From Hydnum rufescens UP504 (Eukaryota; Basidiomycota; Agaricomycetes; Cantharellales; Hydnaceae): a stretch of 64,000 bases of DNA. The stretch covers positions 231,027 to 295,026 of the forward strand of contig MU128931.1 in NCBI GenBank assembly GCA_014904985.1, given 5' to 3'. Shown one piece after another: positions 25,930 to 57,965 of the stretch. Numbering within the stretch: position 1 is the stretch's first letter; the number at the start of each line of letters is the position of its first letter. The translations under genes were made by a program, and so were the position numbers. Below the pieces are notes generated by a model. The model was not told where the DNA came from and ran no database searches. It saw only the letters and a list, made by a program, of their open reading frames with translations.

Positions 25930-28900
25930 TCAAGAGTTAAATGGGTCGGGTGGTGCAGCAAGAATGATCACACGGCCGTCCTTGCATCCGATGGCAATCC
26001 GAGGCTGAGTCAGGCTGCTGGACACAGCAATGGCTGCATTGCTGGAGTAGTAATAGGAAGGGATGTGGCAGAGATGTCTAATGCAGCCACTTTCAGGCTG
26101 TACCACCTGTACCCACTGATCATGAAGAGACCAAATGAGGGGTGCCAAGCCCACAGGCCTAGGGGCTATTGAGGAGGATATGGAGAATATGCACTGGGGA
26201 GGTTGTGAAGTCAAGTCCCATTTAAAGGCCTCTGTACCAGTGCCTAGGGTCAAAATAGAACTATCAGGAGAAAATGTAATGGTGGTATCCTGCTCATGGT
26301 GGCCTTGAAGTACTGAGATGAGGGTGCCAGATGTGGTATCCCACAACCACAGACTGCCATGATTGGAGCTTGATGCAAGGAGTAACCCATTGGGTGAAAA
26401 TGCAATGCTTGTAACTGAGCCAGAATGGCCCTCCAGTTTGGCAATGGGTGCACCAGACGTGGCATCCCACAACTGGAGAGTACCATCATCAGAGCCAGAA
26501 GCAAGGGACAATCCATCAGGTGAAAATGCAACAGTCCAAACCCAACTAGAGTGGGCCACCAGTTTGGCAATGGGTGCACCAGATATAGCATCCCACAAAC
26601 ATAGGGTACCATCACGGGAGCCTGATGTGAGGCATGATCCATCTGGTGAAAATGCAACAGTTTGAACCCAACTACTATGCCCCTCCAATTTAGAAATGGG
26701 TATGTGAGACATTGCATCCCACAATCGTAGGGTCCCATCATGGGAGCCTGATGCAAGGTGCAATCCATTGGGTGAAAATGCAACAGCCCTAATTGAACTG
26801 GAGTGGCCTTCCAGTTTGCCAATGTGCATGCCAGATATGGCATTCCACAAACAAAGGGTACCATCACTGGAGCCTGATACAAGGCACAATCCATCAAATG
26901 AAAAGGCAACACTTGTAACCAAACCAGAGTGAGCTTCCAGTTTCACAATAGGTGCCCCAGACATAGCATCCCACAAAAGTAGGGTACCATCACTGGAACC
27001 TGATGCAAGGCACAATCCATTGGGTGAAAATGCAACACTTGAAACTGAACCAGAATGGCCTTCCAGTTTTGCAATGGCCAGACCAGAGATGGCATCCCAT
27101 AACCTGAGGGTACCATCACGGGATCCTGATGCAAGACATAATCTGCCAGGTAAAAATGCAATGGTCCACACCCAACCAGAATGGCCCTCCAAGTTGGCAA
27201 TGAGCATGCCAGACCTGGCATTCCACAAGCATAGGGTGCCATCACTGGAACCTGATGCAAGGTGCAATCCATCAGATGAGAATGCAATGGCTGTGACTGA
27301 ACCAGAATGGCCCTCCATTTTGGCAATGGGCACACTGGATATGGCATCCCACAACCATATGGTATGATCATTGGAGCCTGAGACAAGGTGCAATCCATCA
27401 GGTGAAAATGCAATAGTCATGACTGAACCAGAATGACCCTCCAGTTTCATGATGGGAATGCCAGAGATGGCATTCCACAACCATAGGGTATGATCACTGG
27501 AACCTGATGCAAGGTGTAATCCATTGGGTGAAAATGCAACACTTGTGACTAAACCAGAATGGCCACATAAAGTACTCAAGGTCTGCGGCCATTCAGATTC
27601 TACACCCTGCAACACCTTGATGCAATCTTTTGTGCCTTGACCATATGTTTGGTAAAGCACAGTCTCCCGGGGTGTGAAAGGCAGTGCAGAGTAATACACA
27701 TGAAGTGCACTTTCTCTTATCACTTCCCCATGAGTGAGAATGAATCGATAGGCATCAGACAGCATGGTGACTAAAATTGGTTCACATTTTGAATTTATCT
27801 GTCATCAGAACCCTTTCAAAGTCAGCTGCCGGACTGAGGATCAATAAGAAATCCACATACCGCCCAGCGGTGTGCCTCTTGAATCGAACTCACTGCAGTT
27901 GAGGTACTACTAATCAGGCTCATTGCTTCAAACCACCATAAAAGCAATTGCATCGAGAACATGTCCAGTGCCTCCACCAGTTTCCTTTCTCCCAACTCGA
28001 CGTGTGATAGATGAGATGCCCAATACCGGCATGCATACTGCACCTCAAGAGGCAAAGCATCGCTCACTTTCCGTTCAAGCCCATCTACCTCCCTGTTTAG
28101 CAGGGTCGGATCAGAGATACTAGCCACATCCCGCTTGAGATATTTCTCCATCAGTTCGAAGCATCGGGTAGCATGCCGTAGCTCCTGCTCTGGGACAGGA
28201 ACAATAACGAACTCCATCATCGAGCATCGCAAAGGATCCAGAATAAATTCGAGAAATGAGGGGTGGTAAATCCGAGGCGCGTCGTGAATATTGGAAGGCG
28301 GGACGATGACTGAGTGAAGATGACGCAAGGTAGCCTCAACAACCTCTCCTTCGTACTGAACGAATCGAGCGAACGAGTTCTGTGGCAGGGGCTCTCGCAA
28401 TAGTACAATACTCCCAACAACGACTTGAAACCGCTTCACATTCTCTTGACGATTATATGGGGAAAGGGAGTTTCGGAGCACACCCTTGTACAGATCGTCC
28501 AGCTGAGAATATGGAGTGGCCCCGGTGTCTTGGACAGAGCCTGTGTCAAGTATAAGACTTAGATGTCGGCGAGGATCTTGCACCCGATCGTCGCCGATGA
28601 ACCGGATTGCCGTAGCCGCGTAAACGAATAGCTTCCCAGACTTCTCTACGAGTGAATTCATCTGGGTCTCGGTGGCCCAATCGGTAGGCATACGAAGGTC
28701 AAGTTTCTTCGGAATTTTCGCCAATTCGGTGGAGATGTAAAAGCGAATGTCTTGCTCAATGACTGACGCGTCTACATCATGAAGGACCGTCTTCTCCAGG
28801 TTCGTCTCTTTCTTGAACACTAAAGATAGGTGAGGTTGTGGACGGCTCGTGATCAAGATACGTAGGAAAGGGATCTGGATCGCACACGAGAACACAAGCT

Positions 28901-39472: not shown

Positions 39473-40085
39473 TGTCAGGGCCACGCTGCGATGAGAGCAC
39501 CAGACAAATATAAACACAGATAACTCCAACTAAGTCCGGCATGAGTCTGGGTAAGTCCAGGAGAATCCGGGCAAGAACGAGATAACGAGATTGAGACGGA
39601 GAGGCAATCCAGCAGCCCGGAAGGGACTAGGCGGAAACGAGCACAGCGGTCCTTAAGCTCACGGAGTCAACTGGAAAGTACTCGGACTGTAGTCTGGAGT
39701 GGAAGTGGAAATCCTGAGATTAACATTAAGGGAATAGGTACAGTGAGGCTAACCTGTAGTCCGGAGTGGAAGCGGAAATCCTGAGAGACCAAAGCTGAAT
39801 CTCTGGATTTCGCCCCGGACTACTTATACATAGTTCCTATACTACGGGGGATTGATCACTTAATGAGAGGTGGTTACAGGGGGGCAGGCACAAGAGGGGA
39901 GCGGGCAGGGGACAGGAAAGTGGAGGGGACAGGGACAGGGCCAGGGGTAAGTGTGTGAGAACCGGAAGTAAAGGAAATGAGGAAATGAAGGGGAAATGAA
40001 ACGGAGGCGGGGACAAACCGGAAACAAACCGGAACAAATCCGGAAACAAATCCGGAATTAACTGGGAAACGGATGAACTCTGACA
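39473..40085 (-). repeat. 3' LTR of element A (chromodomain Ty3/gypsy, minus orientation)
   Basis: 613 bp with TGTCAG at the left and CTGACA at the right, reverse-complement matching the LTRs of element C (51107-51658 and 55940-56475). It is longer than those because it carries a partial internal duplication of the segment around 39680-39795. It interrupts NLR2. The partner LTR lies beyond the right edge of the window. Confidence 0.88.
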
Positions 40086-40169
40086 TTACCCCCCTCTTGA
40101 GCCCGATCGTCCCGAGCGGGTGGGAAGGATCGATCCACGGAAACATCCGGAGTTCTTGTGCCACGTAAT

Positions 40170-41028
40170 ATGTCAGGCAATAATCGTTCTCTGTTTGAAG
40201 AAGCTCGTCTCCGCCGTGAAGAGGCTGCGCAGGCGTTGAGGGAGGCACAGGAGGAGGAGGCCAGGCTCGCGGAGGAGGAGCGGAAGAAGGAGGAGGCGAA
40301 GCGGAAGGCGGCTGAGGCGGCGCGTCGTAAGGCAGCTGCAGAGGCCAAGGCTGCCGCGGAGGCGAAGGCTACTGCCAGGAGGGTCCAGGAGGACTCTGTG
40401 AACCAGCTGTGAGTCCGTGTCTTGGTGAAGTTCCGCTTACTTGGTAATAATGTCTTCCAGGTCTACTGTGTGCATTCGCTGTATTCAGCACCGGATCCCT
40501 TGTGTCCCCCAGGACAAGCCGGGAACGCGGGCGTGCCGGCCGTGCTTCATGGCGAAGGTTCGATGCACGCTGGGCGATGAAGGGGCGTCCGGAGCCGAGC
40601 CATTGACGGGTCGGGGCCGTGCTCGTGCTCCTGCAGCGGACATCCAGCTCTGACTTGTGGTAGCCGTGGAGCAAAGCGCGCTTGCGCACAAACGGTTGGC
40701 CGAGATGTTGGAGAAGCAGGCCCGGGCCGCGGAGGAGATGGCATTCTTGGTGGGGGAGATGCGAGACTCTCTCCAGGCCATCGCCTGGCACCTGGTCCCT
40801 CGCCAGGTGGTTTCTCACCCTCCAGTCCCAAGTCCGGAGTGGATGGGGATCAGGTCTGGAACGGTCGAGCCGGCCTCTGGTGGGGGTCCGTTGTCCAGAT
40901 GCGGGATCAAGTGTCAGTGTACCGAGGAGCCCATCAATATAACGGATAGCGAGGGTGGTAACGACGATGTTGATGGCAAGGACGATGACATGGATGATGA
41001 GGATGATGATGACGAGGATGATGAGTAG
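40170..41028 (+). pseudogene. Antisense Zn2Cys6-like gene of element A, nonsense-mutated
   Basis: Opposite strand to the element's pol. Exon 1 encodes MSGNNRSLFEEARLRREEAA and a long Ala/Glu/Lys coiled coil. An intron (donor CT|GTGAGT at about 40409, acceptor TTCCAG at about 40461) joins NQL to STVCIRCIQHRIPC. The cysteines then give CX2CX6CX10CX2CX6C. A TGA at 40651-40653 stands where the element C copy has CGA. Downstream the frame goes on through a helical segment to an acidic tail (DDDMDDEDDDDEDDE). The basic patch GIKRQRTEE of copy C is GIKCQCTEE here, by two CGT-to-TGT changes. The product would be truncated after the zinc cluster. Confidence 0.75.
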
Positions 41029-41108
41029 TCCGAGCTGTTGTTCTGTCTTCCACTCCTCCTTTTTTCCTTTTTCTTTCCTCCTTGTAAATATGTTGTTCCT
41101 TGAACCCG

Positions 41109-41527
41109 TCAGTGCGTCGACCAGTCTGGGAGGTCCATCGGAGACTCCGTAAGGAACTGGGTGGTCCGGAACGGTATGGATGCGAACTCCACGGCATTAA
41201 TGCGTCTTGGGGCCTCCGGATGAGTCTGGTGGAATTCCTGAACGGCCTCCGGGGCGTTGTCCAGGTTGGCTTTGGGGACCCATTCATTGTCGGAAGCCGG
41301 GTACCCCTTCCACTTCACTAGGTACTGGAGTTTCCGGCAGAAATACCTGGAATTCTTGATTCGCTCGACTTCATACTCCTCTTCACCTCCTCGTAAGATT
41401 GGGGGTGGTGGGGGGTGAGCTGTGTGCTCTGCAATCGGGTCCGGTTGGAAGGGGCGGAGTTTGGATACATGGAACACTGGGTGGATATGCATGGAGGCAG
41501 GGAGTTTGAGATGGATGGCAGAGCAGG
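41109..41527 (-). CDS. Element A integrase C-terminus and chromodomain (left part, split by element B)
   Basis: Segments LKLPASMHIHPVFHVSKLRP and PPPPPILRGGEEEYEVERIK precede a chromodomain: FCRKLQYLVKWKGYPASDNE, WVPKANLDNAPEAVQEFHQ. This is the C-terminal end of a chromovirus integrase, which can target integration to modified histones. At 41528 the sequence is interrupted by element B, and the rest of this integrase continues at 62999. The stop region (DLPDWSTH) is near 41109. Confidence 0.85.
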
Positions 41528-43437: not shown

Positions 43438-43799
43438 CACCTAACGCACCCTCAAAAAGGTACCTCTTAGGTGGGTTCCAGTTGCATTGGCCTTTGACCT
43501 AAGAGGTGGTTTTTATATAGGCACGTCTAGGCGGTGTCTAAAGGTGTTCAAAAGATGAAAAATTTCTAAGTCCCTATAATAGGTGCGCCTATCTGTGCCC
43601 ACCGCAGGTGCCACTCCCAGGCTTTTTAACTATTTGATAGGCATTTTGGGGTTGATTTAGGCATGCCTAAATCAGTTGTGTCTAATGATGTCTAGAGCTT
43701 AATTATTGACTTTGAATTGAAGAGGCCTATCCAGGGTTGATTTAGACATGCCTAAATCAGTGATATCTAGTGATGTGGAACAGGTTGACCATCACCAGG

Positions 43800-44165
43800 A
43801 GGTGTCTAATTGTGTGCCTAAGCAAGTCTAAGCATGTCTAGGGTTGTCTAAGCTTGTCTGGGCATGTCTAGGTGTCTAGGCATGTCTAAGCATGTCTAGG
43901 TGTGTCTAGGTGTCTAGGCATGTCTAAGCATGTCTAGGCATGTCTAGGTGTCTAGGCATGTCTAGGCATGTCTAGGTGTCTAGGCATGTCTAGGCATGTC
44001 TAGGTGTCTAGGCATGTCTAGGTGTCTAGGCATGTCTAGGCATGTCTAGGTGTCTAGGCATGTCTAGGTGTCTAGGCATGTCTAGGCATGTCTAGGTGTC
44101 TAGGCATGTCTAGGTGTCTAGGCATGTCTAGGCATGTCTAGGCATGTCTAGGCAGGTTTAGGCAG
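43800..44165. repeat. Expanded TGTCTAGG(CA) tandem array, left foldback arm
   Basis: About 350 bp of alternating 10-mer TGTCTAGGCA and 8-mer TGTCTAGG units, with degenerate copies at the left edge (GTCTAAGCATGTC-type). The matching array in the right arm is much shorter. Confidence 0.9.
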
Positions 44166-47100
44166 GTAACTTGGGACTGAGTTTAGTACAAATATTATGT
44201 AATTATTCCTAAATGGTATCCAGTTACATAATACATGTATCCTATCTTAAAAAAATGCCAAAATGCGGAAATTAAATGAAGTACATCCAAAGAATATTTA
44301 GGCATCCAGCCCAATGGGGGCCCAGGACCAGGGGGAGGTGCCTGGGATGGATGGATGGACCCCTGGGGACCCTGATAAAGTGAAAAAATTAGGCCCAGGG
44401 CCAATGGTTAATCCCTGAAACAATGAGGGCAGCAAGAACAGCTCCGGAACCACCGGAAGTTGCCGGAATCTAAGCGCTGAGCGGATTGGTCTGAAATTTG
44501 GCACATGACTAGAGACCATCTGCCTGCAAACCATATTAAAATTGCAGCCAAATCCATGCATTAGTTATTGAGATATGAGGCAAACAAGTTTGGATATTGA
44601 AAATTCATTTTCTCCTCCCATAGAATAGCTGGGGACTTGAAAATTTACAGGGAGCATAAAATATAGTGTACTAATTATGTGCCAAACATTATTCCAATCC
44701 ATCCAGGTTAAGGCAGTGAACTGGACAGGGGGTACCAGAACCACCGGAAATTTCCGAAAAAGAACCACTGGGCAGATCGCTCTGAAACTTGGCACGTGAT
44801 TAGAAGCTCCTTAGGCAAAGATCATATCAAAATTTCAGCCATACCCATCCACTAGTTATGGAGTTATGGGCCAAACATGTTTGAACATTGAAAATTAATT
44901 TACTCCCCCTACAGACAGGATATGAACTTGAAATTTTACATGGGGTATGGCCATATGATGAACTACATATGTGCCAAAAATCAGCTTTTTTTGTTTACTT
45001 TTAGGCATGCCACTCCCTTGGCAGGAAAAATGGGAACAAAACCCTACCATGAATGTGAGCCACTCCACCTCAGGCCTAAACTGGGTGGAATAAGCTTTGA
45101 TTAGTATGACCCTGACTATATCCAAAAATAGAATGAATTGGATGTGTGGAAGTGCCTGAAATTGAGGGGGAGGGGGAGGAAGGTCAAAAGGGAATTACAT
45201 CAAATGTAGAGCTGGGGTGGCTCTGATATTATACCACTAGTCTAGCACATATATAGGGAGTACACATACCAAATATCAGCCTAACTGGACTCCATTTAGG
45301 CACTGCTCCACAGCCCTCCCCCCAAAACAACAATTTCCCCCCCAGAGTCTTCCATCCATGCAATGGCCCTGAAAATTCACCCTTTGGTCATCCAAATACA
45401 TTTATAACACCCCCAAAATTTCAGATTCATGACTCCAGTGTGAGAGTTTCCATAATATTTTCAAGTTTCCCTGACATACCCCCTCCAATTGGGGCACTTC
45501 CAGAGCTCCAATCACTCCCATTTTTTGTAGGCCACACCCGGCCACCATTTGAGGCTCAGGCCCAAAATTTCAGCCCATTCTAAGCACTTTTGACATTGGT
45601 CACATGACCAAGATCCTCCTCTCCCCCTGCTTCACTCAGTGATCCAATCTGTATGAAAGTTGTTGCCATCTGTAGTAGTAGTATGTAACAGTGTATGATT
45701 CAAATTTCAGAACATCCCATGCAATATTGATTGAGTTATTCAAGAAATATTCTAGATCTATTCAATTTGGGGGTTCAGAGGTACGGTATATAGTGAAATT
45801 TCACTATATACCATACCTCTAACCCCCAAATTGAATAGATCTAGAATATTTCTTGAATAACTCAATCAATATTGCATGGGATGTTCTGAAATTTGAATCA
45901 TACACTGTTACATACTACTACTACAGATAGCAACAACTTTCATACAGATTGGATCACTGAGTGAAGCAGGGGGAGAGGAGGATCTTGGTCATGTGACCAA
46001 TGTCAAAAGTGCTTAGAATGGGCTGAAATTTTGGGCCTGAGCCTCAAATGGTGGCCGGGTGTGGCCTACAAAAAATGGGAGTGATTGGAGCTCTGGAAGT
46101 GCCCCAATTGGAGGGGGTATGTCAGGGAAACTTGAAAATATTATGGAAACTCTCACACTGGAGTCATGAATCTGAAATTTTGGGGGATGTTATAAATGTA
46201 TTTGGATGACCAAAGGGTGAATTTTCAGGGCCATTGCATGGATGGAAGACTCTGGGGGGGAAATTGTTGTTTTGGGGGGAGGGCTGTGGAGCAGTGCCTA
46301 AATGGAGTCCAGTTAGGCTGATATTTGGTATGTGTACTCCCTATATATGTGCTAGACTAGTGGTATAATATCAGAGCCACCCCAGCTCTACATTTGATGT
46401 AATTCCCTTTTGACCTTCCTCCCCCTCCCCCTCAATTTCAGGCACTTCCACACATCCAATTCATTCTATTTTTGGATATAGTCAGGGTCATACTAATCAA
46501 AGCTTATTCCACCCAGTTTAGGCCTGAGGTGGAGTGGCTCACATTCATGGTAGGGTTTTGTTCCCATTTTTCCTGCCAAGGGAGTGGCATGCCTAAAAGT
46601 AAACAAAAAAAGCTGATTTTTGGCACATATGTAGTTCATCATATGGCCATACCCCATGTAAAATTTCAAGTTCATATCCTGTCTGTAGGGGGAGTAAATT
46701 AATTTTCAATGTTCAAACTTGTTTGGCCCATAACTCCATAACTAGTGGATGGGTATGGCTGAAATTTTGATATGATCTTTCGCCTAAGGAGCTTCTAATC
46801 ACGTGCCAAGTTTCAGAGCGATCTGCCCAGTGGTTCTTTTTCGGAAATTTCCGGTGGTTCTGGTACCCCCTGTCCAGTTCACTGCCTTAACCTGGATGGA
46901 TTGGAATAATTTTTGGCACATAATTAGTACACTATATGTTTATGCTCCCTGTAAATTTTCAAGTCCCCAGCTATTCTATGGGAGGAGAAAATGAATTTTC
47001 AATATCCAAACTTGTTTGCCTCATATCTCAATAACTAATGCATGGATTTGGCTGCAATTTTAATATGGTTTGCGGGCAGATAGTCTCTAGTCATGTGCCA

Positions 47101-47436
47101 AATTTCAGACCGATCCGCTCAGCGCTTAGATTCCGGCAACTTCCGGTGGTTCCAGAGCTGTTCTTGCTGCCCTCATTGTTTCAGGGATTAACCATTGGCC
47201 CTGGGCCTAATTTTTTCACTTTATCAGGGTCCCCAGGGGTCCATCCATCCATCCCAGGCACCTCCCCCTGGTCCTGGGCCCCCATTGGGCTGGATGCCTA
47301 AATATTCTTTGGATGTACTTCATTTAATTTCCGCATTTTGGCATTTTTTTAAGATAGGATACATGTATTATGTAACTGGATACCATTTAGGAATAATTAC
47401 ATAATATTTGTACTAAACTCAGTCCCAAGTTACCTG

Positions 47437-47550
47437 CCTAAACCTGCCTAGACATGCCTAGACATGCCTAGACACCTAGACATGCCTAGACATGCTTAGA
47501 CATGCCTAGACACCTAGACATGCCCAGACAAGCTTAGACTTGCTTAGGCA
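47437..47550. repeat. Short counterpart array, right foldback arm
   Basis: About 110 bp of the reverse-complement units (CCTAGACATG, CCTAGACA). The shortage relative to the left arm is close to the whole length difference between the arms. Confidence 0.88.
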
Positions 47551-47935
47551 CACAATTAGACACCTCCTGGTGATGGTCAACCTGTTCCACATCACTAGAT
47601 ATCACTGATTTAGGCATGTCTAAATCAACCCTGGATAGGCCTCTTTAATTCAAAGTCAATAATTAAGCTCTAGACATCATTAGACACAACTGATTTAGGC
47701 ATGCCTAAATCAACCCCAAAATGCCTATCAAATAGTTAAAAAGCCTGGGAGTGGCACCTGCGGCGGGCACAGATAGGCGTGCCTATTATAGGGACTTAGA
47801 AATTTTTCATCTTTTGAACACCTTTAGACACTGCCTAGATGTGCCTATATAAAAACCACCTCTTAGGTCAAAGGCCAATGCAACCGGAACCCACCTAAGA
47901 GGTACCTTTTTGAGGGTGCGTTAGGTGTGGAGGTG

Positions 47936-49604: not shown

Positions 49605-51106
49605 ATGAAGCCCGCTCCGCCGTCTAGCTCCCCTGTATTTAATTGGAAGCCCACGTATGTAGAGACGCGAAGCAACTTGTTGCATAATGTAAACATAGCG
49701 ACAAATAATATACTACTTCCCCCACCGGTGAGAACCCCCTTGGACCCCCGCAAAAAGCAGCCTGACAAGCCAGTAGCAAAGGAAGCGCACATGGCAATGC
49801 AGCAACTTCCAACCATCGCCATAAGACCAGCTACGCCCGAAAAGGGGCTCAGAGAACTGGCTGAAACGCTGGCTATCCTTCCAGTGAAGGTTATCCGCTG
49901 TGCAAAAGCCAGAACCACACCCCCTGGCAAATCTGCTCTGGGCATTACAGCTCTTAGCGTCTATGGAGGACGCTTAGGGACACCCTCGGCTCCAGAAGTA
50001 CAGTTACAACTGGACTCAGGCGCAGATATTACGTTGATCTCAGAAGAGTGCTACAAGGCCTTAGAACGGCGACCGAAGCTACAAAAAGGAATGAAGCTCA
50101 GCCTGTTCGAGCTCACGAACCAGGCAAAGATCCTAGGCTACATCAACCTCCCCATCTTCATGCCCATGGCTGACGGACGACTGCTGGAGTTTGTTGAGGA
50201 GGCCTACGTGATACCGAAAATGAATGTCCCAGTCCTACTAGGAGAGGACTTTCAGGTCAATTACGAAGTTTCCGTGCTCAGGACAGCCCAAGAGACACGC
50301 TTGTCGATTAACCAGCCACAGGAGGCATTCGATGTGCAAGCACACTCGACTCCCCCAGTGGTAAAGGACTTCGAAGTGCATCCCCATCACCCCCCGGGGA
50401 TCAAGGATCGATCCGCCTACCTCGCCGCCTCAAGAGACCCCATAGGTGTCCTGCCAAAATCCTCGGCACCGCGGCTGGTACAAGCCACCAAGGATGTGCG
50501 GATCCGCCCCTGTTGGGTCGCCAAAGTCCCTGTTCAGGGACTGACCACAGGACAAGACGAGTGGTTTATGGAAAGAGTCACCCTCCCCACTCGTAATGGA
50601 TGTTTCCTAGCTGCCCCTTCCACTTTGATCAAGTCCGGCGAGCTTATAATACCCGTAGCCAATACGTCGCCTACCTGGGAATGGATTCGAAAAGGCGACA
50701 CTCTGGGTGTCCTACACGATCCGGATAAGTATCTGGACTGTGCACATGGGGAGCTTCACCAGGAGCACTTGGAAGCATATGCTCGAGTGGTTCAGAAGCT
50801 AGCTAAAGGATTGCTGGGGGACCAAGATATGTCAGATCAGGCTCTCACACAGTCTAGAGCCTTGGAGATCCCTCCAGAACCAGACAGGCCAGATGAGCTA
50901 TGGGGTCCCAAAACATCCGAACCAGCTGATCCCACAACCTACAATTCGAAGAAGCTGGAAGAACTCATTGATATAGCCCCGGACGCCCCTCCTGAGATAA
51001 GGGCTCAGACCCTGGCACTGGTCCGAAAGCACATCCAAGCTTTCAGCTTTGATGATTGCTTAGGAACGTTAGAGACGATAGCCAAGATCCACACAAAGGA
51101 GGATAC
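49605..51106 (+). CDS. Element B pol, protease and RT-linker part
   Basis: Aspartic protease active site VQLQLDSGADITLISEE at about 50010-50050, with flap/second-lobe motifs ILGYINLPIFMPMADGR and VPVLLGEDFQVNYEV. Beyond it comes a long linker (KVPVQGLTTGQDEW, LTLVRKHIQAFSF-type), ending at KIHTKED where element C is inserted. The codon phase resumes exactly at 56476 as DTHPVSM when C and its GATAC duplication are discounted. Confidence 0.85.
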
Positions 51107-51658
51107 TGTCAGAGTTCGTCCGTTTCCCGGTTAATTCCGGATTTGTTTCTGGATCTGTTCCGTTTGTTTCCAGTTTGTCCCCGCCTCCGTTTCATTTCCC
51201 CTTCATTTCCTCGTTTCCTTTACTTCCGGTTCTCACACACTTACCCCTGGCCCTGTCCCTGTCCCTGTCCCCTCCACTTTCCCATCCCCTGCCCGCTCCC
51301 CCTCTTGTGCCTGCCCCCCTGTAACCACCTCTCATTAAGCGATCAATCCCTCGTAGTATAGGAACTATGTATAAGTAGTCCGGGGCGAAATCCAGAGATT
51401 CAGCTTTGGTCTCTCAGGATTTCCGCTTCCACTCCGGACTACAGTCCGAGTACTTTCCAGTTGACTCCGTGAGCTTAAGGACCGCTGTGCTCGTTTCCGC
51501 CTAGTCCCTTCCGGGCTGCTGGATTGCCTCTCCGTCTCAATCTCGTTATCTCATTCTTGCCTGGATTCTCCCGGACTTACCCAGACTTACACCGGACTTA
51601 GTTGGAGTTATCTGTGTTTATATTTGTCTGGTGCTCTCGTCACAGTGTGGCCCTGGCA
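51107..51658 (+). repeat. 5' LTR of element C
   Basis: 552 bp, starts TGTCAGAGTT and ends CCCTGGCA (the 3' LTR ends CCCTGACA). Small indels separate it from the 536-bp 3' LTR, including one GTCCCT unit and a short TTTCCAG-containing stretch. Confidence 0.9.
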
Positions 51659-53382: not shown

Positions 53383-54904
53383 AAGGGCAACAGAGATCGA
53401 CGATAAAGTGGTCCAGATTGTTAAGGAGCTGAATGGGGATGGACCGAAGACACACCTCAAGGATTGGGAACTCCATGGCTCCACGGTTCTCTACCGAGGC
53501 CGCGTATATGTCCCGTTGGACCCCAAACTCCATCATGACCTCGTGCATGAGCACCATGATACTCCGACCACGGGTCATCCCAGACAGTGGAAGATGTACG
53601 AGCTGGTATCCCGCCACTACTGGTGGCCGGGGATGTCTCGATACATTGCAACCTATGTCTCTACCTGTGACACTTGCAACCGGATGAAAACCTTCCCTTC
53701 CACGCCGTCCGGAACACTCCACCCCAACCCTGTGCTGGACTGTTGATGGCAGGTCATATCCGTGGACATGATCACGGAACTCCCAGAATCACATGGATTT
53801 GACAGCATGATGATCGTCATCAACCGATTATCCAAACGAATCCATGCAATGCCCACAACCACCACAGTCGATTCTGCCGGGGTCGCCTGTCTGTTCCGAG
53901 ACAACATGTGGAGACATCATGGCCTTCTGGAAACCATTATCAGCGACTGAGGCTCCACCTTCACTTCCAAGTTCATGAAGGAGCTGAACTCACTCCTTGG
54001 CGTTAAAACAAATTTCTCGACAGCATTCCACCCCCAGACGGATGGACAGACGGAGCGTGTCAATCAGGAAATTGAGCAATACCTCCGGATCTTTGTTAAC
54101 CACCAGCAGAACGACTGGGCGGAATGGCTCCCTATTGCGGAATTCGCATATAACAACCGTATGCACTCCTCTACACGCCAGACCCCGTTCCGACTGGACT
54201 CCGGACAGGACCCCTGCCTTGGCACTGAACCAGTCTGTGCCAGGACGGTTGAAGCCACCTCGGACTTCATCACTCGGATGCGGAAGGCTACGGACGAAGC
54301 CCAGGCCACCTTACGGAGGGCTGCAGAAGACATGGCACGCTTCTATGATGCCCACTGCACGGATGCTCCAGAATACACAATTGGCGACCAAGTTTGGCTA
54401 GATGCACGTGACATCTCCACCGACCGCCCCACTAAAAAACTCTCCGACAAATGGCTTGGACCCTATAAGGTTGATAAAGTCATCTCCCGCTCTGCCATCT
54501 GTCTCAAACTCCCTGCCTCCATGCGTATCCACCCAGTGTTCCATGTATCCAAACTCCGCCCCTTCCGACTGGACCCGATTGCAGAACGCACAGCTCACCC
54601 CCCACCACCCCCAATCTTACGAGGAGGTGAAGAGGAGTACGAAGTCGAGCGAATCGAGAATTCCAGGTATTTCCGCCAGAAACTCCAGTACCTAGTGAAG
54701 TGGAAGGGGTACCCGGCTTCCGACAATGAATGGGTCCCCAAAGCCAACCTGGACAACACCCTGGAGGCCATTCAGGAATTCCACCAGACTCATCCGGAGG
54801 CCCCGAGACGCATTAATGCCGTGGAGTTTGCATCCATACTGTTCCGGACCACCCAGTTCCTTACGGAGTCTCCGACGGACCTCCCGGACTGGTCAACGCA
54901 CTGA
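53369..54904 (+). pseudogene. Element C integrase with chromodomain, two TGA stops
   Basis: An HHCC zinc region (HHDLVHEHHDTPTTGHP, ATYVSTCDTCNRMK), the catalytic core ([45 protein letters not shown]) and a C-terminal chromodomain (YLVKWKGYPASDNEWVPKA) all lie in one frame. That frame is broken by TGA at 53744-53746 and 53948-53950. At the second site element A keeps CGA (ISDRGSTF). The D,D,E residues of the core are otherwise in place. Confidence 0.85.
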
Positions 54905-54984
54905 CAGGTTCAAGGAACAACATATTTACAAGGAGGAAAGAAAAAGGAAAAAAGGAGGAGTGGAAGACAGAACAACAGCTCAGA

Positions 54985-55855
54985 CTACTCATTGTCCTTG
55001 TCATCATCATCCTCATCGTCCATGTCATCGTCCTCGCCATCAACATCGTCGTTACCACCCTCGCTATCCGTTATATTGATGGGCTCCTCAGTACGCTGAC
55101 GCTTGATCCCGCGTCCGGACGACGGACCCCCACCGGAGGCCGGCTCGACCGTTCCAGACCTGATCCCCATCCACTCCGGACTTGGGACCGGAGGGTGAGA
55201 AACCACCTGGTGAGGGACCAGGTGCCAGGCGATGGCCTGGAGAGAGTCTCGCATCTCCCCCACCGAGAACGCCATCTCCTCTGTGGCCCGGGCCTGCTTC
55301 TCCAACGCCTCGGCCGACCATTTGTGCACAAGCGCGCTTTGCTCCATGGCTACCGCAAGTCGGAGCTGGATGTCCGCTGCAGGAGCACGAGCACGGCCCC
55401 GACCCGTTGATGGCTCAGCTCCAGACACCCCTTCGTTGCCCAGCGTGCATCGAACCTTCGCCATGAAGCACGGCCAGCACGCCCGCGTTCCCGGCTTGTC
55501 CTGGGGGACACAAGGGATCCGGTGCTGAATACAGCGAACGCACACGGTAGACCTGGAAGACATTATTACCAAGTAAGCGGAACTTCACCAAGACACGGAC
55601 TCACAGCTGGTTCACAGAGTCCTCCCGGACCCTCCTGGCAGTAGCCTCCGCAGTAGCCTTCGCCTCCGCGGCAGCCTTGGCCTCTGCAGCTGCCTTACGA
55701 CGCGCCGCCTCAGCCACCTTCCACTTCGCCTCCTCCTTCTTCCGCTCCTCCTCCGCGAGCCTGGCCTCCTCCTCCTGTGCCTCCCTCAACGCCTGCGCAG
55801 CCTCTTCATGGCGGAGATGAGCTTCTTCAAACAGAGAACGATTATTGCCTGACAT
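54985..55855 (-). CDS. Antisense spliced Zn2Cys6-like gene of element C, intact
   Basis: Runs against the element's pol from ATG 55855, 85 bp from the 3' LTR. Exon 1 is MSGNNRSLFEEAHLRHEEAA plus a coiled coil of about 60 residues (LREAQEEEARLAEEERKKEE). The intron (donor GTGAGT near 55617, acceptor TTCCAG near 55565) restores phase to STVCVRCIQHRIPCVPQDKP. The cysteines are spaced CX2CX6CX10CX2CX6C, the fungal Zn(II)2Cys6 DNA-binding pattern. A second helical segment (ALVHKWSAEALEKQARATEE), a PSPEWMG motif, a basic patch GRGIKRQRTEE and an acidic tail (DDDMDDEDDDDKDNE) complete about 270 residues. Zinc cluster, NLS-like patch and acid tail together suggest a nuclear regulator. No known family beyond the cluster is recognised. 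Confidence 0.78.
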
Positions 55856-55939
55856 ATTACGTGGCACAAGAACTCCGGATGTTTCCGTGGATCGATCCTT
55901 CCCGCCCGCTCGGGACGATCGGGCTCAAGAGGGGGGTAA

Positions 55940-56475
55940 TGTCAGAGTTCGTCCGTTTCCTGGTTAATTCCGGATTTGTTTCCGGATCTGTTCCGGTTTG
56001 TCCCCGCCTCTGTTTCATTTCCCCTTCATTTCCTTGTTTCCTTTACTTCCGGTTCTCACACACTTACCCCTGGCCCTGTCCCTGTCCCCTCCACTTTCCT
56101 GTCCCCTGCCCGCTCCCCCTCTTGTGCCTGCCCCCCTGTAACCACCTCTCATTAAGCGATCAATCCCTCGTAGTATAGGAACTATGTATAAGTAGTCCGG
56201 GGCGAAATCCAGAGATTCAGCTTTGGTCTCTCAGGATTTCCGCTTCCACTCCGGACTACAGTCCGAGTACTTTCCAGTTGACTCCGTGAGCTTAAGGACC
56301 GCTGTGCTCGTTTCCGCCTAGTCCCTTCCGGGCTGCTGGATTGCCTCTCCATCTCAATCTCATTATCTCGTTCTTGCCCGGATTCTCCTGGACTTACCCA
56401 GACTTACACCGGACTTAGTCGGAGTTATCTGTGTTTATATTTGTCTGGTGCTCTCGTCGCAGCGTGGCCCTGACA
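55940..56475 (+). repeat. 3' LTR of element C
   Basis: 536 bp, TGTCAG...CTGACA. It is preceded by a purine-rich tract. A promoter for the antisense zinc-cluster gene, if there is one, would lie in this LTR or the 84 bp between it and ATG 55855. Confidence 0.9.
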
Positions 56476-57965
56476 GATACCCACCCGGTCTCGATGCCTA
56501 TGTATGGAGCTTCACCAGCGAAAAGGCAAGTTATTGACGAGCAAATGGACAAGTGGATTCGCCAAGAGGTCATAGAACCGTCAAAGAGCCCCTGGGCAGC
56601 CCCGGTAGTCATCGCATACCGGAATGGGAAGCCTAGATTCTGTGTTGACTACAGGAAGTTGAACGCCATGACTATTCCTGATGAATTCCCAATCCCTAGG
56701 CAATCGGAGATCCTACAGGCCCTCTCAGGATCACAAGTTCTCTCAGCGCTAGATGCATTGGCCGGCTTCCACCAGATGGCAATGAGGGACGAGGACAAGG
56801 AGAAGATGGCTTTCAGGTCATACCGGGAATTATGGCAGTTCAGGCGGATGCCCTTCGGCCTGCGTAATGGCCCATCCATCTTCCAACGGATGATGCAGGC
56901 GATCCTCACCCCCTTCTTATGGATATTCTCACTGGTGTATATAGACGACATCGTTGTATACTCAAAATCTTATGAAGAGCACCTGCACCACCTGGACAAA
57001 GTGCTGCAAGCATGTGCAGAGGCGAGATTGACACTTGCACCCAAGAAGTGCCACTTCATGTACACTTCAATCCTACTATTAGGTCAGAAGGTCTCCCAGC
57101 TTGGACTATTGACCCACAAGGAAAAGATAAAGGCAGTAACAAACTTAGCTCACCCCCATAACAGGTCGTCACTGCAGACATTCTTAGGAATGGCAGTGTA
57201 CTTCTCTCATTTCATACCTCATTATTCAGAACGAGCTGCACCATTGTTTGAGCTGTTACAAAAGAACGTAAGCTGGCTCTGGGGGGCTGAACAGGAACAG
57301 GCCTTTGAGGACGTTAAGGAGGGCCTGGTCTCGACCCCGGTACTAGGACACCCTATGGCAGGGAAACCATACCGAATCTATTCGGATGCCTTGGACGTAG
57401 CTATAGGATCTAGCCTACAGCAAATTCAACCTATAGCAGTATGGGATCTGAAGGGTACCAAGACCTATGAACGAATCTTACGTGCCCACGCTGAGGGTGA
57501 ACCAGTACCAAGACTGGCCCGTCAGATCGCACAAAATACAGATGATGCACCTGAACCAGAGGCTTGGGCCCAAGATGTAGAAGAAACGATAGTCCATGTA
57601 GAGAGGGTCATAGCCTACTGGAGTCGATCACTAAAGACAGCCGAGCGGAACTATTCAGCAACAGAACGAGAAGCCCTGGGAGTGAAGGAAGCGCTAGTGC
57701 GCTTCCAGCCCTTCATTGAGGGTGAAAAGAACATTGTGATCACTGATCATGCTGCACTGCAATGGGCTAGGACTTATGAGAATGCCAACTGGCATCTAGC
57801 GGCGTGGGGGGCTGTATTCACAGCATATCCAGGCCTGGACATAGTGCATAGAGCAGGGATTGTACATTCCAACGTCGACCCCCTCTCAAGACTGAGACAG
57901 ATTCCGCCGCATCAATTGCCGGTGGAAGACAGCTCTCCCCCCTCCCAAGTCAGCTTCCTGAGCAG
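56476..57965 (+). CDS. Element B reverse transcriptase and RNase H
   Basis: Continues pol in phase after element C. RT motifs are KSPWAAPVVIAYRNGKPRFC, VDYRKLNAMTIPDEFPIPR, LSALDALAGFHQMAMRDEDK, RRMPFGLRNGPSIFQRMM and the catalytic VYIDDIVVYSKS. The connection and RNase H parts are FLGMAVYFSHFIPHYSERAA, KPYRIYSDALDVAIGSSLQQ, NYSATEREALGVKEALVRF and IVITDHAALQW. The frame then ends at a TGA at 57967. A one-base slip in the C-rich run at about 57935-57946 separates it from the integrase frame. Confidence 0.9.

Follow-up and report, generated by a model that had tools for sequence, protein, structure and literature searches.

An antisense gene with a conserved intron and a Zn2Cys6-like cysteine cluster in chromodomain Ty3/gypsy retrotransposons of Hydnum rufescens

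A lineage of chromodomain Ty3/gypsy retrotransposons in Hydnum rufescens carries, between pol and the 3' LTR, a two-exon gene encoded on the strand opposite to gag-pol, and the protein specified by this gene is under purifying selection between two element families, F1 and F2. We establish here that the gene and its frame exist, that its splice junctions are conserved, where it lies, that it is under selection, and that a single branch of the lineage gained or lost it. The gene was recognized in element C, which lies in a 64,000-nucleotide stretch of contig MU128931.1 (hereafter, the window), corresponding to C23:231027-295026 of the 63.2-Mb assembly of 539 contigs that was searched. Splicing at GTGAGT...TTCCAG, with removal of 52 nt, joins the two exons into a single frame of 272 amino acids. 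As originally predicted, the frame, the CX2CX6CX10CX2CX6C cysteines, the KRQR patch, and the acidic tail are all present on the minus strand at 55855..54985. The features of the gene are as follows.

54905..55888, no strand: cassette of F1 and F2 elements, lacking in the gene-less siblings fetched, located after the pol stop and before the polypurine tract (right edge approximate)
55605..55855, minus strand: antisense exon 1, 251 nt from the ATG at 55855, encoding a charged, Ala-rich AEAK-repeat helix (a probable coiled coil, as judged by eye)
55553..55604, minus strand: antisense intron, 52 nt, GTGAGT...TTCCAG
54985..55552, minus strand: antisense exon 2, 568 nt including the TAG stop ending at 54985
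55447..55542, minus strand: six-cysteine cluster CX2CX6CX10CX2CX6C, CVRCIQHRIPCVPQDKPGTRACWPCFMAKVRC, residues 88-119 of the spliced protein
55093..55104, minus strand: KRQR basic patch, a candidate nuclear localization signal
54988..55068, minus strand: acidic C-terminal tail of the spliced translation

The carrier, element C, is delimited by the following features.

51107..51658, plus strand: 5' LTR, 552 bp, starting with TGTCAG
55940..56475, plus strand: 3' LTR, 536 bp
51102-51106 and 56476-56480: 5-bp target site duplication GATAC, flanking the LTRs of element C
53951..54904, plus strand: C-terminal part of pol, i.e. the integrase end, SH3_Tf2-1, and chromodomain (PF24626, 1.9e-16; PF00385, 3.8e-15)
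55927..55939, plus strand: polypurine tract and last bases 5' of the 3' LTR, AAGAGGGGGGTAA, which on the other strand form the leader upstream of the antisense ATG

A pol gene ending in an integrase SH3 domain and a chromodomain, TG...CA LTRs, and a 5-bp target site duplication identify the carrier as a Ty3/gypsy chromodomain element. Alignment of its two LTRs gave 521 identical columns, 15 mismatches (all transitions), and 16 gap columns. Inspection of the plus-strand translations by eye revealed a gag that includes a CCHC knuckle and is interrupted by stops, then protease, and finally integrase, preceded by a gap in which most of RT/RNase H is lacking. Element C itself is thus no intact element, and it apparently sits inside another gypsy element. 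The word 'intact' in the original prediction applies to the gene, which is open in element C, but not to its carrier. The gene had also been placed against pol; however, pol stops at a TGA at 54902-54904, and because the gene lies wholly downstream, between pol and the polypurine tract and 3' LTR, it is convergent with pol rather than opposite to it. This location, between pol and the 3' LTR and opposite in direction to gag-pol, is that of an aORF-3R. A leader hairpin upstream of the polypurine tract showed no excess folding (z -0.02 and 0.15), and an Rfam search yielded no match.

A second copy in the window belongs to a truncated sibling, element A:

40170..41028, plus strand: antisense gene copy in element A, in the opposite orientation, with a premature TGA in exon 2

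This copy does occupy the same place, as had been claimed, but because of the in-frame TGA in exon 2 it is evidence of shared position and not of intactness. Element A (39474-41527) is truncated at 41527, and its LTR has an internal insertion or duplication of ~50 bp near 39721-39785. Other repeats were seen elsewhere in the window. A near-perfect palindrome of ~4.5 kb is located at 43438-47930, with arms of ~2.3 kb that are 96-100% complementary and a 45-nt spacer; the arm segment 44817-45775 recurs head-to-head at many places (C112, C127, C49, C50, C164, C204) with ~97-100% or ~88% identity, indicating a dispersed palindromic repeat family. Positions 26299-27606 contain nine WD40-like tandem copies at a spacing of 126 nt (42 aa), with inverted paralogues near 38.7-39.4 kb; we take the repeats at 26299-27606 to belong probably to NACHT/WD40-type genes.

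The exon-2 protein matched at least 109 places in the genome (matched pieces, split matches included, which are not all separate loci), and 54 antisense-gene loci were fetched and aligned. Two carrier families were distinguished, F1 (element C and its kin) and F2 (L051-L054), and L051 and element C share 60% identity in the exon-2 alignment. The intron is 52 nt long in all 51 readable loci (all of the 54 except L026, L047, and L050); in these, the 5' splice site is GTGAGT in 40 and ATGAGT in 11, and the 3' splice site is CAG in 50 and TAG in one. The start ATG is kept in 49, and eight of the 54 aligned loci, including element C, are fully open, i.e. they have the ATG, GT-AG splice sites, and no premature stop. 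Among the 29 F1 copies entered in the codon alignment described below, 20 of 23 premature stops are of the CpG-decay type. At columns in which at least three copies have CG, 42% of the dinucleotides are still CG and 58% are not, most losses being to TG or CA, and the ATGAGT splice sites are preceded by C, as expected from CpG decay at the splice site.

Identity between F1 and F2 is ~65% in the exons, ~28% in the intron core, 71% in the LTR, and 73% in the leader; despite the scrambled intron core, the splice junctions and the intron length are constant across both families. A homologue from the protein searches described below, P0004, reads through the exon-intron boundary and equals the L053 read-through in length, from which an intron of 52 nt is deduced on the basis of the protein letters. 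An independent exon-2 gene with its own ATG was rejected because that ATG is kept in only 28 of 47 F1 and one of four F2 copies. A weakly matching place at C119 proved to be an F1 copy in decay, with 80% DNA identity across the pol end and the gene. The view that the gene is a family-wide feature and no chance ORF was borne out, with further members in both F1 and F2 and conserved splice sites. We are nearly certain that this is a real antisense gene under selection; it is very probably spliced as drawn, and we infer its transcription and splicing from the aligned copies.

To relate the gene to its carriers, we searched the genome with the pol C-terminus and obtained 126 places (618 first-look candidates, 125 scored), which were paired with 81 of the 109 antisense places. 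At 44 of the 46 pol places with at least 81% identity, the gene is present on the opposite strand within 1.5 kb downstream (the exceptions being C15:376078 and C27:44122); most copies of the family thus carry the ORF, as is typical of an aORF-3R. Below 81% identity, nine of 80 pol places were paired with an antisense gene, of which those at C42, C298, and C107 are F2 copies and five others are further gene copies. A gene ascribed to a 57%-identity pol lineage at C34 was rejected, since the place is actually an F4 element inside an F2 gene copy; at this locus (L071, C34:1800-5800), the F4 chromodomain element of 57% identity lies within the F2 antisense gene, apparently as a nested insertion.

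Ten of the 73 places without the gene were examined, seven of which constitute F3 and three F4, and the bounds of the cassette were obtained by comparing the junctions of these gene-less siblings with those of element C and L051. In F3, ~40 nt lie between the pol stop and the polypurine tract; in F4, pol runs into the tract; and in F1 and F2, a cassette of ~1 kb separates the two. A chromodomain tree was built from the 52 of 71 loci whose chromodomain match was sufficiently long (L065 and L066 are absent from it; L060 is labelled F1 but is an F2 copy, L057 is a very long decayed row, and F1 is not resolved), and a 99/100 branch in this tree splits nine gene-less rows (six of F3 and three of F4) from the 43 others. 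In the ten gene-less siblings fetched, no cassette separates pol from the polypurine tract, which places its gain (or loss) on a single branch. As the distant F4 also has no cassette, the simplest reading of these alignments is a single gain in the ancestor of F1 and F2, but a single loss may have taken place instead.

Selection was assessed in a codon alignment of 30 of the 54 loci (29 F1 copies and L051), from which frameshifted or partial loci were excluded (by name L010, L040, L044, L046, L047, L050, L052, and L054). The pooled dN/dS of F1 versus L051 was 0.226, and 0.198 after removal of CpG codons; within F1, where the value is pooled over decaying copies, it was 0.375 and 0.326, respectively. 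When the seven open F1 copies were compared singly with L051, dN/dS was 0.196-0.265 (0.153-0.241 with CpG codons removed) at a dS of 1.1-1.5, with differences concentrated at third codon positions (chi-square p 9e-7 to 4e-10). Divergence between seven F1 and two F2 copies over the first ~370 nt of exon 2 was 0.225/0.182/0.483 at the three codon positions, and in the same region of L001 and L053 the antisense frame is the only one of the six that is open in both (w 0.16). The excess of synonymous change that the original prediction sought among the copies was therefore found (F1 versus F2, dN/dS ~0.2 with dS >1). The antisense frame is far beyond chance, and its protein is under purifying selection between F1 and F2. 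With the pol C-terminus as a yardstick (w ~0.05 versus ~0.20), the antisense gene is less constrained than pol. In 42 of the 54 copies, gap runs in multiples of three made up 65 out of 70 in exon 1, 15 out of 176 in the LTR, and 10 out of 27 in exon 2; this frame-keeping gives weak support because exon 1 holds 18-nt repeat units, copies share events through common descent, and no such bias is seen in exon 2, presumably as many copies are decaying.

The loop of the cysteine cluster is X10 in F1 and X11 in F2, and L051 retains every one of the six cysteines; across the 29 F1 copies, Cys 1-3 are invariant and Cys 4-6 slightly decayed. A protein search with P0001 alone as the query yielded nothing at E<=0.01. 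Profile A1, run against 5.8 billion proteins, identified at least 11 relatives among the best 8000 candidates scored, all from JGI sources, with BLASTP identities of 44-59% (P0002-P0009) and 37-48% (P0010-P0012), or 33-62% in other alignments. The cluster is complete, and always with X10, in six of the 11 homologues (P0002-P0005, P0010, and P0011); the remaining five start inside or after it. A Lys four residues after Cys 5 is found in element C and in all six homologues with a complete cluster. The best-conserved part of the protein is the core after the cluster, QxRLAVAxEQSALxHKxSAEALE, which the 11 homologues have in common, and the invariant columns of a 13-row alignment likewise lie after the cluster and none in it, several rows being without the cluster. 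The genomic context of the 11 homologues was sought in viral contigs and not found there. A PDB search with P0001 gave five weak rows, the best of them (E 0.0027) to a designed coiled coil in which no single stretch passed by itself; profile A3 had no match in PDB, and an NCBIfam scan gave nothing relevant.

Canonical Zn2Cys6 domains have the spacing CX2CX6CX5-12CX2CX6-8C and several Arg/Lys residues between Cys 2 and Cys 3, and this basic stretch is visible in GAL4 and LAC9. The antisense protein resembles GAL4-type proteins (PF00172) in its cysteine spacing, which lies within the classical range, in its acidic tail, and in a probable helix after the cluster, as judged by eye. It differs from them in that the residues between Cys 2 and Cys 3 (IQHRIP, VQQRIC, or AAKGLA) form no basic stretch, that the second half of the cluster contains the invariant Lys, and that its matches to the Pfam profile are in swapped order and below the cut-off. 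Zn_clus scored 14.7 bits with the spliced protein and 15.5 bits with exon 2 against a cut-off of 21, and the L051 (F2) protein gave no Zn_clus row at E<=10. The first cluster half of element C and L002 was matched to the second half of the profile, and the second cluster half of L053 to its first half. Fifty-five Zn_clus places were listed for the genome, all above the cut-off, and no antisense-gene place was among them. When hhalign was run against five canonical domains, the probability was 62.5%; among 100 shuffles that preserved the cysteines, four reached this score (in a smaller first run, 0 of 20), and swapping the cluster halves raised the probability to 73.5%. Canonical membership was set aside because the Pfam score is below the cut-off; the hhalign score is slightly better than those of the shuffles, and we use the term Zn2Cys6-like cluster. 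Of the label 'Zn2Cys6-type' in the original prediction, the cysteine spacing stands, but the Zn_clus comparisons do not bear out the type. Calling the protein a zinc-cluster protein is plausible from its cysteine pattern, and the cluster probably binds zinc; a nuclear regulator that binds nucleic acid or chromatin is a reading we favour slightly. Both zinc binding and nuclear action are inferred from features of the protein such as the cluster and KRQR.

A candidate target was identified in the LTR:

55968..56014, plus strand: tandem array TTCCGGATTTGT of 11-12 bp units at the U3 end, reading CGGA on the antisense strand, with variable copy number

The array is located ~110-160 bp upstream of the antisense ATG and has a pitch of 10-12 bp. 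In the last 150 bp, CCGG counts exceeded those of dinucleotide shuffles (p<0.05) in seven of 10 copies tested, the exceptions being L005, L011, and L051. The array length ranges from 29 to 75 in steps of ~11.5 bp (32 of 54 loci with a delimitable array) and differs between the two LTRs of element C. Among gene-less F3 elements, the array is strong in L061-L064, moderate in L070, and not apparent in L065 and L067; in L061-L064 and L070, its CGGA/CCGG units lie in U3 at a pitch of ~10-11 bp. It is absent in all three F4 siblings. As specific evidence for autoregulation the array was rejected, since it is equally strong in the gene-less L061-L064; because gene-less siblings share it, it is at most a pre-existing target, and its presence in F3 without the gene means that the array is older than the gene or that F3 lost the gene. 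Action of the protein on its own LTR is conceivable, at somewhat short of even odds, and LTR binding and the sign of any regulation are speculative.

Antisense accessory genes are already known from plant LTR retrotransposons and Boty-like fungal elements. Zhao et al. in 2011 reportedly described Boty-like elements of Botrytis with an antisense gene, brtn. In the accessible parts of the sources, Boty-like elements with a chromodomain and brtn are described in PMC4227169, and brtn is also mentioned in PMC8365987 and PMC7264820. As far as these parts go, Boty is likewise a fungal chromodomain gypsy element with an extra antisense gene, and the descriptions of brtn, compared here by description and not by sequence, mention no zinc cluster or intron. 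The remark in the original prediction that antisense ORFs are described in some plant gypsy elements is correct for plants, but they are not confined to plants, as the excerpts on brtn indicate (PMC7264820, PMC8365987); because antisense accessory ORFs are known in fungi too, the placement is less novel than was supposed. In Retand, according to the available portion of PMC11963269, antisense ORFs occur in 97% of clusters and have a TRP28 domain thought to bind DNA. The plant Retand and Grande aORFs are, in the passages available, similarly antisense accessory genes in the interval between pol and the 3' LTR, present in most copies and proposed to be regulators, and nuclear localization is reported there for the Grande product. 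Unlike the Retand aORF, the protein described here has a six-cysteine cluster and charged helices and gave no hit to TRP28/Transposase_28 (PF04195) in Pfam scans at E<=10, and its carrier is a fungal chromodomain element. The conserved intron and the measured purifying selection between families go beyond the Retand and Grande descriptions in those passages.

Among retroviruses, HBZ of HTLV-1 and the APH proteins of HTLV-2/3/4 are, in the available text of PMC10186651, produced from antisense RNAs of the 3' LTR; spliced antisense RNAs encode HBZ/APH, HBZ is nuclear, and HBZ, APH-3, and APH-4 reportedly reduce LTR-driven expression. They resemble the present gene in these features, i.e. as spliced 3' LTR antisense genes whose products regulate viral expression, as stated in that text; HBZ, however, is a bZIP protein of animal retroviruses whereas the protein here has a cysteine cluster, and the likeness is one of analogy. 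In Arabidopsis, the excerpts of PMC5735166 and PMC10398659 describe VANC as an anti-silencing protein that keeps methylation off same-orientation motif arrays of VANDAL transposons, i.e. as an element-encoded protein paired with motif arrays in the element's own non-coding DNA; VANDALs are plant DNA transposons, and this likeness too is by analogy. No zinc-cluster antisense gene in a retrotransposon was found in the literature searched, which comprised papers outside subscription, and the word 'antisense' has a count of 0 in two surveys of fungal gypsy/LTR elements (PMC3248453, PMC2864245).

Since selection preserved the gene, the element probably makes its own protein to control itself. In the explanation we propose, a cassette of ~1 kb would have been acquired downstream of the pol stop and ahead of the polypurine tract, and an antisense transcript would start in or near the 3' LTR and lose the 52-nt intron. 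The product would comprise an N-terminal helical AEAK-repeat region, a six-cysteine cluster probably binding two zincs, a strongly conserved helix, the KRQR basic patch, and the acidic tail. It would most likely act in the nucleus as a dimer, binding DNA or chromatin and regulating the LTR of its own element, as a functional analogue of retroviral HBZ/APH; plant Retand aORFs and fungal Boty brtn are further analogues. For this reading as a whole, an accessory regulator gene of a fungal chromodomain (Ty3/gypsy) lineage that works via a nuclear zinc-cluster protein on its own LTR, we consider the chances evenly balanced. A more specific version, in which a half-swapped Zn2Cys6-like protein, captured or evolved, is made from a spliced antisense transcript of the 3' LTR and binds a pre-existing, slippage-prone CGGA array, is doubtful, as is its corollary that the element would contain a complete feedback or anti-silencing loop, evolved convergently with HTLV HBZ and plant VANC.

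The protein might serve the replication cycle directly instead of controlling the LTR, through export of RNA, assembly of particles, import into the nucleus, or targeting of integration, and its cluster would then contact RNA or protein. The charged stretches, KRQR, and the non-canonical cluster are compatible with many roles, and the invariant columns of the 13-row alignment, several rows of which are without the cluster, lie after and not inside it. However, gene-less sibling families also reached many copies, so the antisense gene is dispensable for the basic cycle, and antisense expression would be an odd route to a structural part; we regard this role as rather unlikely. Anti-silencing, by which the antisense product on the CpG-rich U3 array would keep host cytosine methylation off as VANC does, is unlikely. 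The heavy CpG decay of the copies (the 58% above) and two genome places matching a DNA methylase family make methylation silencing a plausible threat, and the units of the U3 array are closely packed and vary in number, as is the case for VANC targets in the accessible parts of PMC5735166 and PMC10398659, but gene-less F3 siblings carry the array as well.

That the functional product is the antisense RNA, acting through dsRNA or transcriptional interference with the ORF incidental, is very improbable: possible regulatory roles of antisense LTR transcripts are discussed in the available part of PMC7264820, but codon-level selection and conserved splice sites are traits of a protein gene. Retroelements capture gene pieces, according to the same part of that source (PMC7264820), but a neutral passenger derived from a host gene fragment is scarcely credible in view of the selection between two diverged families and the same position in F1 and F2; furthermore, no host progenitor was seen among the places inspected, as those read in the protein searches with F1, F2, and P0010 are the same, and the divergent places fetched were element copies, mostly decayed. 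The probability of a chance ORF or a mirrored sense-strand feature is close to nil, since the mirrored sense frame of L001 and L053, with a w of 0.23 like a codon-wobble reflection, contains 3 and 1 stops whereas the antisense frame contains none, and the splice sites are conserved on the antisense strand.

To the known antisense accessory genes, as represented in the available parts of the sources, the present analysis adds a comparison of gene-bearing with close gene-less families, selection at the protein level, and a conserved antisense intron; it also points to a candidate domain and, within the same LTR, to a specific candidate target. Should the protein act on the LTR, one and the same design of antisense feedback would have evolved independently in fungal retrotransposons and in retroviruses.
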